From IMG/VR virus record IMGVR_UViG_3300020020_000091, positions 1 to 41,596 of that record: a stretch of 41,596 nt of DNA, one strand, 5' to 3'. Origin of the DNA: a virus. Positions within the stretch are counted from its first letter, which is position 1. Each line of letters starts with the position of its first letter. The notes under the pieces are model-generated. The model worked only from the letters and a program-made list of their open reading frames with translations, was not told the DNA's origin and searched no databases. The position numbers and the translations under genes are program-made. Of the stretch, positions 17,935 to 27,059 are shown piece by piece.

Positions 17935-17965
17935 GTTGTTCATTCTCGACGAGAGGGAAGAGGGA

Positions 17966-18472
17966 ATGCGGATAATCGGACCACCGTCAGCGACCAAGGA
18001 AACGGTGCTCAACAGGCTCACCGTTCGAGCGGGCGTCCATCCTCGATTCAGGGCTGAGATGTTCGACCCGCTCTGGGCGGCCGCCCTGAAATACGGTGTC
18101 GATCCCGTCGGCGTGATCGCTCAGTCGGGGAAGGAAACCGGCTGGGGGAACTTCGGCGGGAACGTCCGACCCGAGTTCTATAACACGGCCGGGATCAAGA
18201 TCCGGTGGCAGAACCTCTACCCCGGGGTGACCGACGACGACAAGCCCCTCGCTCACTCCATGTTCGCCAGCTGGGCGGTGGGGGCAGAGGCGCACGTCCA
18301 GCACCTTCGGGCGTACGCCGGGTGGCCGGTCACGGATCAGCTCATCGTTGATCCTCGCTACGTGTTCGTGACACAGCACCGATGCGAGAACTTCGAGGAG
18401 CTCGGCGGCAAGTGGGCGCCGGCGCTGAGCTACGGCCCGGAGCTCGTGGCGATCGCCAGGTCGCTGCAATGA
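17966..18472 (+). CDS. Glucosaminidase-like wall hydrolase
   Basis: A 168-residue protein resembling mannosyl-glycoprotein endo-beta-N-acetylglucosaminidase / GH73-type hydrolases that cut the glycan strands of peptidoglycan. Key features: A-A-A-L-K-Y-G-V-D-P helix, then Q-S-G-K-E-T-G-W-G with E57 as the likely general acid, Y-N-T-A-G-I-K, and S-W-x-x-G-A-E-A-H-V-Q-H-L. No signal peptide, so release would rely on the holin. Start is ambiguous: ATG 17966 with GAAGAGGGA upstream, or TTG 17936 with GGGAGGA. First of three wall enzymes in a row. Confidence 0.75.
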   Translation: MRIIGPPSATKETVLNRLTVRAGVHPRFRAEMFDPLWAAALKYGVDPVGVIAQSGKETGWGNFGGNVRPEFYNTAGIKIRWQNLYPGVTDDDKPLAHSMFASWAVGAEAHVQHLRAYAGWPVTDQLIVDPRYVFVTQHRCENFEELGGKWAPALSYGPELVAIARSLQ

Positions 18473-18484
18473 AGGGAGCCCATC

Positions 18485-18673
18485 ATGGATGACGAACGCG
18501 AACCGGACCCTCCGGAGTTCGATCGATCGAAGGTGCCCGAGGGGCCCGCCGCGGACTGGTTCTTCGACGGCAGGACTGGGCGTGGCCTCACGAATGAGGA
18601 ATACGACGAGGTAGTCCGCCGATTGGAGGGTGCCGGCGACGACGTTCCGTGGCGCAGAGGCGGGGCTGGCTGA
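18485..18673 (+). CDS. Small acidic protein in the lysis region
   Basis: A 62-residue acidic protein (D-D-E-R-E-P-D-P-P-E-F-D) with the segment W-F-F-D-G-R-T-G-R-G-L-T-N-E-E-Y-D. It starts after AAGGGAGCCC and its TGA overlaps the amidase ATG. It lies between two lysins and could be co-regulated with them. No family recognised. Confidence 0.65.
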   Translation: MDDEREPDPPEFDRSKVPEGPAADWFFDGRTGRGLTNEEYDEVVRRLEGAGDDVPWRRGGAG

Positions 18674-19623
18674 TGCCGACGCGCGAGTGGTCACCGCTGG
18701 TCACCGGGTTCCAGGTCAACCTGCAAGACAGCTCGGCGCGCACGCGCCCGGTCGTCGGGATCGGGCACCACCACACGGCCGCGACCGGCAAAGCGGGCGT
18801 GCTCGCGAACTTCCTGCCCGGCGGTCGTACGGTCACGCCGAACTACTTCATCGCCGGCACGGAGATCATCGGCATCGTGCCCGAGTCTCGACGCGCGTTC
18901 ACGTCGTCGTCGGGTACCTACGATGGCCAGTCGATCACGTACGAGATCCTCAACTCGACTGGCGATCCGACGTGGGGATTCTCCGCCGAGACGCTCGCCA
19001 CGGTGAAGCGACTCGACGCGGAGATCGCGAAGTTCTACGGCATCCCATTCCGACACGCGCTGCCGGGGTTCTGGGAACACAAGAACGTCTACCAGTGGAC
19101 GGGCGGAGCCGAGGGGTACGCGACCGCGTGCGCAGGCCCGGCCTTCCGGATCCTCGAAATGATCGCAGGTGCGCAGACGGCCGGCGGCGACGTAACACCT
19201 ATCAAGCAAGGAGACATCATGGCGAAGTACATCTGGTCGAATGGCCGAGCGGGCCTGCTGCTGAAAGTCAGCGGGATCTACTACCCGAAGAACCTCGAAG
19301 AGGCGCAGGCGATGCAGGATGCGTTCGGTGGCCTCACCGTGGGCGACCGACAGTGGGATGTCATGCGCCAGGCGTGCCTGAACATCGCCGCCGACGAGGA
19401 GAAGGCGCTCGGCGCGGTCCAGACGGGCCTCGACGCGGCGTTCCTCAAGCTCTTCGCACGACTCGACGCGATGGACGACGACCTGACGCCCGACGTGGAC
19501 GAGATTGCGCTCGCCGCTGCCCTCGCGCCTGCGCTCGCTGAGCAGGGCATCGAGGCGAAGGTGGACGCGGTCGAGCTCGCGAGGGTGTTCCTCAACGCGA
19601 GCGCCGAACGACTGGCGGAGTAG
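18673..19623 (+). CDS. N-acetylmuramoyl-L-alanine amidase with C-terminal duplicated domain
   Basis: A 316-residue endolysin component. Residues 1-165 are Amidase_2-like: G-I-G-H-H-H-T-A-A-T at 29-38 (zinc His), then W-E-H-K-N-V-Y and A-C-A-G-P at likely metal positions. It would cut the bond between N-acetylmuramic acid and L-alanine. Residues 183-316 are a C-terminal module (Y-I-W-S-N-G-R-A-G-L-L-L-K, D-R-Q-W-D-V-M-R-Q-A-C-L-N) closely similar to the C-terminus of the next gene, presumably for wall binding or multimerisation. An internal ribosome site would produce this module alone (see 19219-19623). Confidence 0.85.
   Translation: MPTREWSPLVTGFQVNLQDSSARTRPVVGIGHHHTAATGKAGVLANFLPGGRTVTPNYFIAGTEIIGIVPESRRAFTSSSGTYDGQSITYEILNSTGDPTWGFSAETLATVKRLDAEIAKFYGIPFRHALPGFWEHKNVYQWTGGAEGYATACAGPAFRILEMIAGAQTAGGDVTPIKQGDIMAKYIWSNGRAGLLLKVSGIYYPKNLEEAQAMQDAFGGLTVGDRQWDVMRQACLNIAADEEKALGAVQTGLDAAFLKLFARLDAMDDDLTPDVDEIALAAALAPALAEQGIEAKVDAVELARVFLNASAERLAE
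19208..19213 (+). promoter_or_regulatory. Internal ribosome binding site in the amidase gene
   Basis: AAGGAG lies five bases before an in-frame ATG (19219), exactly at the boundary between the amidase domain and the C-terminal module. This is a near-ideal ribosome site located inside a coding region, and the paralogous gene downstream lacks both it and the ATG. Confidence 0.6.
19219..19623 (+). CDS. Possible separate C-terminal module of the amidase (alternative start)
   Basis: Translation from the internal ATG would yield a 134-residue protein: M-A-K-Y-I-W-S-N-G, then G-I-Y-Y-P, D-R-Q-W-D-V-M-R-Q-A-C-L-N, and a helical acidic tail. Several endolysins are known to use internal starts to produce extra wall-binding subunits that assemble with the full enzyme. 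That precedent and the ribosome site support this; expression is inferred. Confidence 0.5.
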   Translation: MAKYIWSNGRAGLLLKVSGIYYPKNLEEAQAMQDAFGGLTVGDRQWDVMRQACLNIAADEEKALGAVQTGLDAAFLKLFARLDAMDDDLTPDVDEIALAAALAPALAEQGIEAKVDAVELARVFLNASAERLAE

Positions 19624-20538
19624 ATGACACTCCTCGATCAGGCGCGGGCCTTCGCCGCTCGATATCCTCGCCCTTCGATGCACACGGCCGGCGACCCGTC
19701 GACCTGGGATCAGATGTGCGGGAACCTGTGCTTCCGGTTCGGCGTGTTCACCACGCCCGGCTGGGGGCCGAGTCTGTCCGGCCCGACGATCTGGGATGTC
19801 GGGCTGCGCTCGAATCCGAAGAACACGAACGCGGCCGCCGCGCCCGCCGGGGCGGTGCACTGGTGGCGGAATCGAACCTCCACCGGCAAACCGGGCCACG
19901 GCGGCGTCGGCGTGACACCCGGCGGGGACAACGTGTTCATGGCGACGTTCGCGGTCCGCGAGCCGATGGGGATCCCTGGCGTGAACACCGCGCTCGGGCT
20001 GCAGTCCGTCGGCGGGTACTCCGCAGCCAAGACGTTCATGGAGTACATGGGCTGGTCGGACAACTACGCGGGCGCTCGGTATGCGGGCGCGGTCCCGACC
20101 GGCGGGGGGGTCACCCCGATCTCGCAGGATGTCGCCGCACGTTACATCTGGGCGCCGGGCCGAGCCGGTCTGCTCCTGAAAGTCGGCGGGATCTACTACC
20201 CGACCTCGCTGGAGGAGGCCGCGAATCTCGCGCTGGTGTTCAACGGCGTCAACGTCTCCGATCGGCAGTGGGATGTGCAGCGCCAGGCGTGCCTGAACAT
20301 GGCGGCCGACGAGGCCGTGCCCATGCGCGCGTTGCAGGCTGGGATCGACGCATCGTTCGCGGAGATCACGGCGCGCTTCGACGCGTGGGATGACGATCTC
20401 ACACCGGATGTCGATATCGGGGCTCTCGCCGCTGCACTCGCGCCCGCGCTCGCACGCGAGGGTGTCTCGGTCGAGATCGACGCTGAAGCGCTGGCGGAGG
20501 TATTCCTCGACGCCAGCGCGACGAGGCTCGGAATGTGA
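19624..20538 (+). CDS. CHAP/NlpC-P60-like peptidase with the same C-terminal domain
   Basis: A 304-residue second lysin. Residues 1-155 look like a papain-type peptidase: W-D-Q-M-C-G-N-L-C with C32 (or C36) as nucleophile, A-P-A-G-A-V-H-W-W at 73-81, and P-G-H-G-G-V with H92. It likely cuts peptide stems or cross-bridges. Residues about 172-304 repeat the amidase C-terminal module (Y-I-W-A-P-G-R-A-G-L-L-L-K, D-R-Q-W-D-V-Q-R-Q-A-C-L-N, then L-A-A-A-L-A-P-A-L-A). It begins immediately after the amidase stop. Confidence 0.8.
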   Translation: MTLLDQARAFAARYPRPSMHTAGDPSTWDQMCGNLCFRFGVFTTPGWGPSLSGPTIWDVGLRSNPKNTNAAAAPAGAVHWWRNRTSTGKPGHGGVGVTPGGDNVFMATFAVREPMGIPGVNTALGLQSVGGYSAAKTFMEYMGWSDNYAGARYAGAVPTGGGVTPISQDVAARYIWAPGRAGLLLKVGGIYYPTSLEEAANLALVFNGVNVSDRQWDVQRQACLNMAADEAVPMRALQAGIDASFAEITARFDAWDDDLTPDVDIGALAAALAPALAREGVSVEIDAEALAEVFLDASATRLGM

Positions 20539-23502: not shown

Positions 23503-23711
23503 ACGGACCATACAGCTACGTCAAGCAGTGTGCCCTGGTCGATGCCCACGATGAGCACGACTGGCATGAACACAAGGGTTCGGAGTTCTACCCCCGACAT
23601 TGCTGGGGCAAATCGACCTCCGAACGACTGGGCGAATTGGGCCACGAACGGCAGCTCGGCCCGGACCACAACTTCGACAAGTGGCACGCCGACGGAGAAC
23701 GGCCCGCATGA
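23499..23711 (+). CDS. Small His-rich hypothetical protein
   Basis: A 70-residue protein rich in His, Asp and Trp (H-D-E-H-D-W-H-E-H, W-H-A-D-G), perhaps metal binding. Leader GGGAAGGATGGATC is a good copy of the shared start-associated motif. Not recognised. Confidence 0.62.
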   Translation: MNGPYSYVKQCALVDAHDEHDWHEHKGSEFYPRHCWGKSTSERLGELGHERQLGPDHNFDKWHADGERPA

Positions 23712-24130
23712 ACGAGCCGACCGAATCGCAGACGCTATACGCGGGGTTTGTGCCGGGCTTGCCGCAATCTCAGGGATCGAAGATCGCTGGGGTCACGAAA
23801 CACGGGAAGCCGTTTCTCCGAGATCGGAACGGCACGGCGCTCTGGGCGTGGCGCACGCTCGTCGCGACGCACATTCACGACGCGACAGCCGACTACGTCG
23901 AGGGCGCCTGCATCGTGGACATAGAATTCCGTCTGCCGCGACCGGCGACGGTGACGCGCGAACTGCCGTCGGTCGCTCCGGATGTCGATAAGTTGACGCG
24001 GGCCATATTGGACGCGATCACGGAATCTGGGCTCTGGCGCAACGACGGCCAGTGCACCGATCTGCTGGTTCGGAAGCGCTATGCCGCTGAACCGGGAGCG
24101 TGGATCCAAATCAGGGAATGGGTGGGATGA
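23708..24130 (+). CDS. RusA-like Holliday junction resolvase
   Basis: A 140-residue protein. The RusA pattern is clear: P-D-V-D-K-L-T-R-A-I-L-D-A-I (residues 91-104) with D92, D94 and D102, followed by N-D-G-Q at 112-115 and K-R-Y. These acidic residues coordinate the metal that cuts four-way junctions. Fits with the nearby exonuclease and annealing protein as a recombination and branch-resolution set for packaging. Start overlaps the previous stop. Confidence 0.85.
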   Translation: MNEPTESQTLYAGFVPGLPQSQGSKIAGVTKHGKPFLRDRNGTALWAWRTLVATHIHDATADYVEGACIVDIEFRLPRPATVTRELPSVAPDVDKLTRAILDAITESGLWRNDGQCTDLLVRKRYAAEPGAWIQIREWVG

Positions 24131-24339
24131 CGATGAGCGACGACGTGAGGTACCCGGACATTTCTGTTCGGCTGATCGGATACGACGGCAACGGTTTCAT
24201 GATCGTTGGCCGCGTGGCGGCTGCGATGCGTGCAGCGAAGGTGCCGGTGGCGGAGATCAACGAGTTCCGAGACGACGCGATGAGCGGCGACTACGAACAT
24301 CTGCTGACGACCGTCGAGCGATGGGTGGAGGTCGAGTGA
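24127..24339 (+). CDS. Small hypothetical protein
   Basis: A 70-residue protein beginning M-T-M-S-D-D, with L-I-G-Y-D-G-N-G-F-M-I-V-G-R-V-A-A-A-M. A beta-beta-alpha start and a C-terminal helix ending W-V-E-V-E. Overlaps both neighbours. Not recognised. Confidence 0.62.
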   Translation: MTMSDDVRYPDISVRLIGYDGNGFMIVGRVAAAMRAAKVPVAEINEFRDDAMSGDYEHLLTTVERWVEVE

Positions 24340-24605
24340 TGGACCAGCCCGAGGGTGTGGCGGTGGAGTACCGCGACGGCACCATTTACGAGAACCTGCC
24401 GCTCGAAGACTACGGTCTCGACGCGGAGGGCAACCACCTCTGGCGGGTGATGTTGCCGCGAGACATGTACGAGGAATTGCCGGTGGGGATGACGGTCGCG
24501 CACTGGCCGGCGCACACGGGGCTGATGATCCCAGCGCTGGCGCCGAGGCGGTTCGATCCGTCGGCGACAGACGGTGTGGATGGACTCCCTACTGGGGAGG
24601 GATGA
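24339..24605 (+). CDS. Small hypothetical protein
   Basis: An 88-residue protein with V-E-Y-R-D-G-T-I-Y-E-N-L-P-L-E-D-Y-G and L-P-R-D-M-Y-E-E-L-P-V-G. Begins at the TGATG junction. Not recognised; possibly a small soluble beta protein. Confidence 0.62.
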   Translation: MDQPEGVAVEYRDGTIYENLPLEDYGLDAEGNHLWRVMLPRDMYEELPVGMTVAHWPAHTGLMIPALAPRRFDPSATDGVDGLPTGEG

Positions 24606-24608
24606 ACC

Positions 24609-24983
24609 ATGAACACGAATCAGATCTTGAACTGGGTGATCAAGCATCCGGTGAGGGACGTTGACGATAGGCATTGGGGCGGCTGGGGTGGATGGGACGG
24701 CGCGCTGCTGTCTCGCCTCGGCGTCGCTCCCGAAGCACCGTCGATCAGGGAGCTCGCGAAACGCGCCGCGGCGTTGTTCCCGAGTCGCCTGGAGGCGCCT
24801 GTCGGCGCTGTGCATTTCTTCCTGATCGAGCCCTATGGGCACGCGGTCGTGGATGTGTGCGGCGGCGGTCGTACCGTGTTGGAAGCTCGGGGCGGGGGTC
24901 TGCGCTACACGAGTATCGACGAGATCTGCCGGGGAGGCTCCATCTATCTTGGCTGGGCATTCTTTTCGAGGGAGGCGCCGTGA
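24609..24983 (+). CDS. Cysteine-less relative of the CHAP-like lysin
   Basis: A 124-residue early protein. It lines up by eye with the phage's own peptidase at 19624: W-D-G-A-L-L-S-R-L-G-V (29-39) with C-G-N-L-C-F-R-F-G-V, A-P-V-G-A-V-H-F-F (63-71) with A-P-A-G-A-V-H-W-W, and G-H (77-78) with G-H, then G-G-G and Y-L-G-W-A. The two candidate nucleophile cysteines are replaced by D30 and L34. It has no C-terminal binding module. It could be a pseudoenzyme or inhibitor of the lysin, or a papain-fold protein used for something else. Fold similarity is inferred. Confidence 0.65.
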   Translation: MNTNQILNWVIKHPVRDVDDRHWGGWGGWDGALLSRLGVAPEAPSIRELAKRAAALFPSRLEAPVGAVHFFLIEPYGHAVVDVCGGGRTVLEARGGGLRYTSIDEICRGGSIYLGWAFFSREAP

Positions 24984-25231
24984 TGCGTACGTGGATTCTG
25001 CACGAAGACGATGACGGTTCTCGGCATGTTTTCGAGGTGCTGCTGTACCAGGCGATCGAGCTGAATTTCGAGACGCACGCCGCCCCGCTCGACGGCCGGT
25101 GGTGGTATCACCGAGCGAGGACGCTGATCAGCGTCGAGGGTGAGATCGTCGGCGGGCGCATGTGGTACGGCCCGATGCCGGATGACGACATGGGCGAACT
25201 GTCGAACCGCCGGGCGATCGGAGATTCGTGA
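24983..25231 (+). CDS. Small hypothetical protein
   Basis: An 82-residue protein (W-I-L-H-E-D-D-D-G-S-R-H, W-W-Y-H-R-A-R-T-L). Starts at the TGATG junction and ends at a TGATG junction. Beta-rich, acidic. Not recognised. Confidence 0.62.
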   Translation: MRTWILHEDDDGSRHVFEVLLYQAIELNFETHAAPLDGRWWYHRARTLISVEGEIVGGRMWYGPMPDDDMGELSNRRAIGDS

Positions 25232-26220
25232 TGAACGCACTCGAACTGCTGGAGAAGTACGCGGGCGCGTCAGATCGAGACCGCCGCGCGTGGCTGGCGG
25301 AACGCGACCGGGGCATCACGGCGACCCAGGTGCGAGATCTCCGACTGGGCAAGATCAGCACCCCTCGCCTCATATCGCTCAAACTGGGTTGGGAAGTCGA
25401 TACGTTCACCGGCAATGCGTTCACGGACTGGGGCAACCAGCGCGAGATCGTGATCGCCGCGCGACTGCGTGACGTGCTGAACATGCGACACGAGACGCGG
25501 GTTTTCCATGCGCCGGACGAACCGCGGTTCCTCGCGTCACCGGACGCTATGGGTGTGGACTTCGACGAGGCGCTGCGTATTGCCGAGATCAAGACGGCCG
25601 GCGAAGAGGACATCGGCCCCGGGTCCGAATTGTTCGCGCAATACGGCTACGACGCACAGGTGCAGTGGCAGATGCGCGTGACTGGCGCCGACTGGTGTCT
25701 GTTCGCCTGGGAGCAGCGACTCGTCGGCCCGCTGGGCGGGTTCGTACCCGGTCGTCTCCAGTGGGAGTGGGTGCAGCGCGACGAGGTCATGATCGCCGAG
25801 CTCGAGGAGTTGGCGCGCAACTTCCTCGCCGCTCTGGACGAGGCGGCGATGAGCGCGCATCCGGTGGACGAGAACGTGACCCGAGACGCGCAAGAGTACC
25901 TCGCTGCGCTGGGCATCGAGAGGGTTGTACGGGAGCGGAAGGAAGCGGCATATCGCCTGTTGCTGACCTCGGGTCGTTCCCAGGTGGCGGATGACATCCG
26001 AGTGACGTACACGCCGGGTCGGGTCGAGAAGCCGGGCGAGGTTGACGAGATCGACTACGCCCAGGCGGAGGCGGCCAACCCAGAACTGTTCGCAGAAATG
26101 CAGCGGATCTCGGAGGCCTGGGCGACGCACTGCGAGCAGTACACGAAGCATCTGCTGGTGCCGGGACATTCGTTCCCGGCACGGGTGACGGTGACCAAAC
26201 TAGGGAAGGAACGGGAATGA
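25231..26220 (+). CDS. YqaJ-like (lambda exonuclease family) nuclease
   Basis: A 329-residue protein. R-G-I-T-A-T-Q-V near residue 28, S-P-D-A-M-G with D105, and A-E-I-K-T-A with E119 and K121 match the PD-(D/E)xK core of phage YqaJ / lambda exo-type nucleases. Downstream Y-D-A-Q-V-Q-W-Q-M completes the family pattern. It resects 5' ends to create single strands for the annealing protein encoded next. The chosen ATG overlaps the previous stop. Confidence 0.88.
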   Translation: MNALELLEKYAGASDRDRRAWLAERDRGITATQVRDLRLGKISTPRLISLKLGWEVDTFTGNAFTDWGNQREIVIAARLRDVLNMRHETRVFHAPDEPRFLASPDAMGVDFDEALRIAEIKTAGEEDIGPGSELFAQYGYDAQVQWQMRVTGADWCLFAWEQRLVGPLGGFVPGRLQWEWVQRDEVMIAELEELARNFLAALDEAAMSAHPVDENVTRDAQEYLAALGIERVVRERKEAAYRLLLTSGRSQVADDIRVTYTPGRVEKPGEVDEIDYAQAEAANPELFAEMQRISEAWATHCEQYTKHLLVPGHSFPARVTVTKLGKERE

Positions 26221-27059
26221 CTGAGCCAGTTGAGACGGCGCTGCCGATCGAGGTAGTGAGCCATCCGAATCTCGCCGCGGCGCTCGCTGCGGTGCAGGCG
26301 GTGATCCCGCCGCTGCCGAAGACGACCACGGCCGAGGTGAAGAACCGCGAAGGCAAGTTCCTGTACTCGTACCAGTACGCGGATCTCGCGGATGTGACGC
26401 CGATGATCCTGCCGCTGCTGGGACGGAACGGTCTGGCGTTCACGGCACGACCGACGATGCACGAGACGTTCGGATTCGTGCTGCATTATTCGCTGGTCCA
26501 CGCGGACAGCGAGCAGACGATCGAGGGGTTCTACCCGCTCCGGGATTCGGACTCGCCGCAGGCGATCGGCGGGGCGATCACGTATGGGCGCCGCTACACG
26601 TTGTGTGCGGTCACGGGACTCGCTCCAGGTGGCGACGATGACGATGCAGCGGCGGCGACTGCGGAGGCGGCCGCATCGCCTCCGCAGGAGCGTCCCGTGC
26701 CGGCGGCGAACGTGCCGGTGGCGAAGACGAATTGGGCCGTGCAGATCTTGGACGCCAATACGATCGACGAACTGCGCGCGATCAGCAAGGATGTCGAGGC
26801 GAAGGAAGAGCTTGGGCATCGGTTCAACCCGCGGTTCGTCAAGCACTTCACGGCGATGCTGGCGCACTACGATCTCTCGGAGCCGCCCGCTGATGTCACT
26901 GTGGGCAAGGTGCTGGAGGTCGCGCGAGACGTGATGAAGGCGCGCACCCTGGCGGGGGCGGAGGTCGTCGATACGTCCGAACCTGTCGAGGGGCGGGTGT
27001 CCGATTGGGACTCTCGTGAGATCCCAGATGACAAGGCATCCCCACCGGAGGACGACTGA
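26217..27059 (+). CDS. ERF-type single-strand annealing protein
   Basis: A 280-residue protein. Residues about 15-145 show the ERF pattern: Y-Q-Y-A-D-L-A-D-V-T, L-P-L-L-G-R-N-G-L-A, A-I-G-G-A-I-T-Y-G-R-R-Y-T-L-C-A-V-T-G-L, then a G-G-D-D-D-D acidic stretch. It would anneal complementary single strands with the exonuclease just upstream (a Red-like pair). C-terminal region has helices (I-D-E-L-R-A-I-S-K-D) and an acidic end, as single-strand binding partners often do. The leader GGGAAGGAAC precedes the ATG. Confidence 0.87.
   Translation: MTEPVETALPIEVVSHPNLAAALAAVQAVIPPLPKTTTAEVKNREGKFLYSYQYADLADVTPMILPLLGRNGLAFTARPTMHETFGFVLHYSLVHADSEQTIEGFYPLRDSDSPQAIGGAITYGRRYTLCAVTGLAPGGDDDDAAAATAEAAASPPQERPVPAANVPVAKTNWAVQILDANTIDELRAISKDVEAKEELGHRFNPRFVKHFTAMLAHYDLSEPPADVTVGKVLEVARDVMKARTLAGAEVVDTSEPVEGRVSDWDSREIPDDKASPPEDD

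Follow-up and report, generated by a model that had tools for sequence, protein, structure and literature searches.

A probable relative of actinophage lysins, lacking the nucleophile cysteine, among the recombination genes of a phage

The 24609 gene and its surroundings

We analysed a 41,596-nucleotide stretch of phage DNA (the window); the host of the phage is probably a Microbacterium-like bacterium. On the plus strand the genes of a recombination run follow one another tightly in the order rusA–orf–orf–24609 gene–orf–recE/yqaJ exonuclease–erf. The product of the 24609 gene is called here the early protein.

23600–24130, plus strand: RusA-type Holliday junction resolvase, first gene of the recombination run
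24100–24339, plus strand: small ORF, phrog_1933 (unknown function)
24339–24605, plus strand: small ORF, no family
24609–24983, plus strand: early lysin-like protein, nucleophile Cys absent (APVGAVHFF at residues 63–71, GH at 77–78, YLGW at 113–116)
24980–25231, plus strand: small ORF, no family, overlapping the 24609 gene by 4 bases
25228–26220, plus strand: YqaJ/RecE-type exonuclease, overlapping the preceding ORF by 4 bases
26217–27059, plus strand: Erf-type single-strand annealing protein

The 24609–24983 ORF starts with ATG, encodes 124 amino acids and is preceded by a Shine-Dalgarno-like leader (GGAGGGATGAACC-ATG). With a GC3 of 0.77 and codon log-odds per codon that are positive in the reading frame only (+0.04; the two others have −0.58 and −0.51), it is a real ORF with coding-like codon usage, present where an earlier note on this DNA had described it. 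The same note assigned it to an early operon. The gene content (rusA, recE-type exonuclease, erf) agrees with this, and early transcription would follow from that content; the one promoter-like site returned by a promoter consensus scan belongs to the minus strand and is no better than chance. For comparison we used Microbacterium phages that share the exo-erf module, with rusA where annotated. Most of them carry a lysin and a holin upstream, and none has a lysin-family gene between rusA (or the holin) and exo. The 24609 gene therefore looks like an addition at this position.

The phage also encodes three adjacent late lysins (a glucosaminidase, an amidase and a peptidase):

17936–18472, plus strand: late lysin, glucosaminidase-type
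18649–19623, plus strand: late lysin with an Amidase_2 domain
19624–20538, plus strand: late lysin with a family-like peptidase domain (residues 1–155, CxxxC at 32/36, GH) and a C-terminal module

The amidase and peptidase lysins have their C-terminal module in common (54% identity over a 187-residue BLASTP alignment), and the catalytic domains that precede it are unrelated.

Resemblance to a late lysin and to an actinophage lysin family

The earlier note had likened the early protein to the peptidase domain of the 19624 lysin. The three blocks on which it relied are indeed colinear (WDGALLSRLGV/CGNLCFRFGV, APVGAVHFF/APAGAVHWW and GH/GH), a further common block that it overlooked follows the same pattern (IYLGW in the early protein, EYMGW in the lysin), and the Smith-Waterman score of 53, equalled in about 0.1% of 2000 shuffles, corresponds to a z of 4.5. 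Two-sequence BLASTP is not significant, however: the best segment has E 0.28, and the segment that contains the second and third blocks has E 6.3. For this reason the pair by itself would not establish homology.

Direct searches with the early protein returned no match in Pfam, PHROG, NCBIfam or PDB sequences. The PHROG scan listed nothing at E ≤ 10, phrog_12298 included, and neither the CHAP (PF05257) nor the NlpC-P60 Pfam profile matched; its relative L004, introduced below, itself reached only E 0.018. Eight tblastn matches in phages (E 3–7) were rejected; the Pseudomonas Y10 match among them runs antisense to an ABC-transporter-like ORF. Plasmids gave no tblastn match, single-query scans of viral contigs with the early protein, the exonuclease or the lysin gave no relative, and neither did scans of genome contigs.

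Relatives were reached with degenerate DNA patterns built from the motifs of the early protein. The first, GAVH[FY]..GH, retrieved L004, a 138-aa ORF adjoining a DnaG-type primase. Two wider patterns with an added Y-x-G-W block led to one coherent single-domain family of 128–164 aa, with about 84 full-length members, 69 of them distinct; pattern matches L034, L039, L065, L089 and L121 were rejected as chance. Chained tblastn searches from L004, Eileen gp25 and L053 then arrived at annotated lysins of Arthrobacter and Microbacterium phages. Among the scanned members, the phrog_12298 profile matches Min1 gp59 with E 1.8e-53 and environmental members with E 1.7e-4 to 3e-11, so that phrog_12298 spans both the Microbacterium/Arthrobacter phage 'lysin A' proteins and the about 84 environmental single-domain proteins. 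The chain places the early protein and the 19624 lysin in the neighbourhood of this actinophage lysin family.

Annotation of the family is uneven. PHROGs labels phrog_12298 'moron, auxiliary metabolic gene and host takeover: membrane associated protein'. Its lysins (Teamocil gp44 and Min1 gp59 of Microbacterium phages, Eileen gp25 of an Arthrobacter phage) are annotated either 'lysin A' or 'membrane associated protein': RefSeq records carry the latter name, and several GenBank originals call the same genes 'lysin A'.

How strong is the link? A profile of the 69 distinct environmental members, run against the 712 six-frame ORFs of the window, ranks the early protein first (E 1.3e-5) and the 19624 lysin second (E 1.4e-3), and HHalign gives 92.8% for the early protein and 88.8% for the 19624 lysin (against A5 the early protein has only 5.9%). 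These values carry a real circularity, the environmental family having been fished with patterns derived from motifs of the early protein itself; once these motifs are masked, the protein's profile score is gone. We take masking as a harsh test and not a decisive one, because the masked positions are those that any true relative should share.

Two approaches are less circular, although the lysins that they use were reached by a chain begun at pattern matches. With profiles built from annotated lysins only, the 19624 lysin ranks first among the 712 window ORFs; the early protein ranks 3–4 (E 0.15–0.3) with two of the three profiles and is unlisted with the Arthrobacter-type one. Conversely, when the single early sequence is compared with 2281 ORFs from 20 loci of named phages, phrog_12298-type lysins take ranks 4, 6, 7, 15, 27 and 38 (Mann-Whitney p 3.7e-5 against length-matched ORFs). 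The early protein also follows the P-x-G ... G-[HD] ... Y-x-G-W order and spacing of phrog_12298 lysins, and is 45% identical to the Teamocil lysin over 40 residues (GGGR-V ... T-ID ... YLGW), of which the GGGR-V and T-ID stretch lies outside the search patterns. Similarity to the family outside the motifs used for finding it is weak, and this is the main weakness of the case. Taken together, we regard relatedness of the early protein to the lysin family as very probable.

Predicted fold and catalytic residues

The competing view that the motif similarity is coincidental and the fold unrelated draws on the failed masked-motif profile test, on the non-significant BLASTP comparison with the 19624 lysin and on the low confidence of AlphaFold when given the early sequence alone (pLDDT 38). 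Even that single-sequence model, though, has a secondary structure order, H-H-H-E-E-E-E-H-E, which fits the class. With the family alignment the pLDDT rises to 62, with values of 64–85 per ten-residue block over residues 51–120 and below 50 at residues 1–43, which is where the nucleophile would sit. Structure matches include LytE, MepS, PlyPy, Ly7917, LysIME-EF1 and Tse1. Most of the highest-ranking PDB matches belong to NlpC/P60, CHAP or other related papain-like proteins; the matches are weak (best Foldseek E 0.08, VIA Z up to 6.8), and as Z values below 8 may also come from common arrangements, we take them as support, not proof. The earlier note had tied its claim to a papain-like fold, and the predicted fold appears to be of this class, at low to moderate confidence. 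Given these matches, the colinear order and spacing of the motifs and the less biased lysin ranking, coincidence is an unlikely explanation.

The early protein has only two cysteines, C84 and C107, and none before residue 84. In the other members with an alignable N-terminal half, the nucleophile Cys is present in 99 of 99, and the helix that follows it has Ala in 99 of 99 and Trp in 98 of 99. The G-x-C nucleophile motif of the phrog_12298 family is absent from the early protein. The earlier note's claim that both candidate nucleophile cysteines are replaced thus stands in that no alignment puts a Cys there, while its choice of Asp and Leu as the replacing residues depends on the method: alignment to the family puts Trp29 at the site, alignment to the lysin Asp30, and MAFFT Leu33. 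Since the T-D motif and the next helix's otherwise invariant Ala and Trp are altered as well, more than a single codon is affected, and we judged it unlikely that the Cys is missing through a sequencing error alone.

By contrast, the C-terminal half keeps P-x-G-A-V-H, G77-H78 and Y-L-G-W. Of a Cys-His-acid triad, the Cys is absent, H78 is kept, and E92 is an alignment-dependent candidate for the acid. Lying 14 residues after the His, E92 could stand in for it: in triads of this class the acid follows the His by 12–17 residues, as in RipA (His432-Glu444; PMC12067865) and Skl (His92-Glu109; PMC8586454).

The catalytic site shows variation of another kind elsewhere in the family. The His is present in 93 other aligned members and replaced by Asp in 7, all Microbacterium-phage-type lysins. 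These proteins, which have G-D in place of G-H and keep the Cys, are phrog_12298 lysins of Microbacterium phages (L112:4995-5837, L113:3821-4642, L111:5001-5870, L110:4980-5408, L118 and L120) and L114, from a faecal sample. An invariant His in K-H-P-G-D might serve them as a substitute.

Relatives in other phages and the role of the early protein

The early protein has the P-x-G, G-H/D, Y-L-G-W order and a domain length similar to that of phrog_12298 lysins, and shares GGGR-V and T-ID with their Microbacterium members. Unlike it, these lysins retain G-x-C-L and the S/T-A..W helix, and most of them the T-D motif as well; a C-terminal extension is present in many, and those seen lie in or near a lysis or tail region. 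The environmental proteins (L004, L058, L078 and others; 128–164 aa) are closer in form, having GAVHF, GH and YLGW and no wall-binding module. They differ in that all complete members have the nucleophile Cys and most have TDP-KAP and T-D. The earlier note was correct that the early protein has no C-terminal wall-binding module; as a pointer to a new role this fails, the single-domain form being the rule among environmental members.

Family genes occur in several settings. Those of L016, L053 and Teamocil are near tail or lysis genes, and that of L069 has a terminase-like ORF on one side and a portal-like ORF on the other, both named from reading and not from a profile match. In two environmental phages a Cys-bearing single-domain relative sits, like the 24609 gene, in a recombination operon:

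L058:10255-13224 and L078:2767-4859: RecA (RecA/UvsX), lysin-family gene, Holliday-junction resolvase, WhiB-like gene

The resolvase and WhiB genes are profile-confirmed in L058, and their L078 counterparts are assigned by sequence resemblance only. A RecA-resolvase operon is an unusual site for a putative endolysin. This relative is the only free-standing peptidoglycan hydrolase that our searches of either record found; no Amidase_2 or M15 lysin was found in them (the records may be incomplete), and the remaining hydrolase domains are in ORFs of >1000 aa, M23 in the L058 record and a second family copy in the L078 record. That second copy (G003:C1:18223-18603) is part of a 1235-aa ORF, probably a virion-associated hydrolase.

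Because Cys-bearing relatives occupy recombination operons in L058 and L078, a non-lytic role does not follow from early location, contrary to what the earlier note had read into it. This bears on its suggestion of an inhibitor or immunity protein, a dead lysin that would delay lysis or shield the host wall from rival lysins by binding either the lysins of the same phage or what these act on. That the early protein resembles the peptidase domain of the phage's 19624 lysin and is plausibly expressed before lysis, as judged from position in the recombination run, would be compatible with such a function, but with Cys-bearing relatives in the same type of operon elsewhere position is no argument for it, and we consider it unsupported and improbable. 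A host-wall remodelling role, also suggested, is not supported.

The 24609 product is probably a dead enzyme, either retained because it serves some other purpose or in the course of being lost. Decay of a former lysin-type gene under relaxed selection, with no present function, is the main alternative to retention. It would suit a phage with three dedicated lysins, the loss of several otherwise invariant residues, the failure to find a close relative with this version and an in-frame coding score (0.04) below that of the exonuclease and lysin genes (0.26–0.27). Yet the ORF is intact, its ribosome-binding site is good, a 4-base overlap couples it to the gene that follows, its C-terminal-half core motifs are fully kept, and dead genes seldom persist long in phages. 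We hold decay to be possible, if rather unlikely.

What we find most likely is a displaced lysin-type gene turned pseudoenzyme. Its ancestor would have been a single-domain lysin-type gene like those in other phages' recombination operons, and hydrolase activity would have been lost in a phage that has three lysins in a cassette of their own. Through the half of the groove that it retains, the protein may then bind, without catalysis, the stem peptide of peptidoglycan or some related partner, peptide or protein. The analogy is with RipD of Mycobacterium tuberculosis, an NlpC/P60-type protein that has its catalytic Cys replaced and binds peptidoglycan without cutting it (PMC12067865). RipD is bacterial and has lost the His as well, whereas the phage protein keeps G-H. 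On balance, we favour a diverged, nucleophile-less relative of actinophage CHAP/NlpC-P60-type lysins (phrog_12298) that has lost its hydrolase activity and for which non-catalytic binding is the likeliest present role. Among the papers listed by our text searches, we saw none that describes a phage lysin which has become a pseudoenzyme.

A further analogy comes from DNA repair, where the inactive papain-like fold of Rad4/XPC serves as a scaffold in DNA processing (PMC10318531). The two proteins have no sequence link, and the parallel is drawn from the recombination-operon setting only; that the early protein was recruited to the recombination machinery of the phage, to act as a scaffold or to bind DNA or protein there, seems very improbable. 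If true, it would make the presence of lysin-family genes in RecA-resolvase operons a functional, not an accidental, link.

The 24609 gene offers a defined pseudoenzyme candidate alongside an intact relative in the same genome. Function calls made from position or from the PHROGs label 'membrane associated protein' need care, because phrog_12298 is labelled host takeover yet phage annotators call its members lysin A. One small lysin family is found both in the lysis/tail regions and in the recombination operons of phages.
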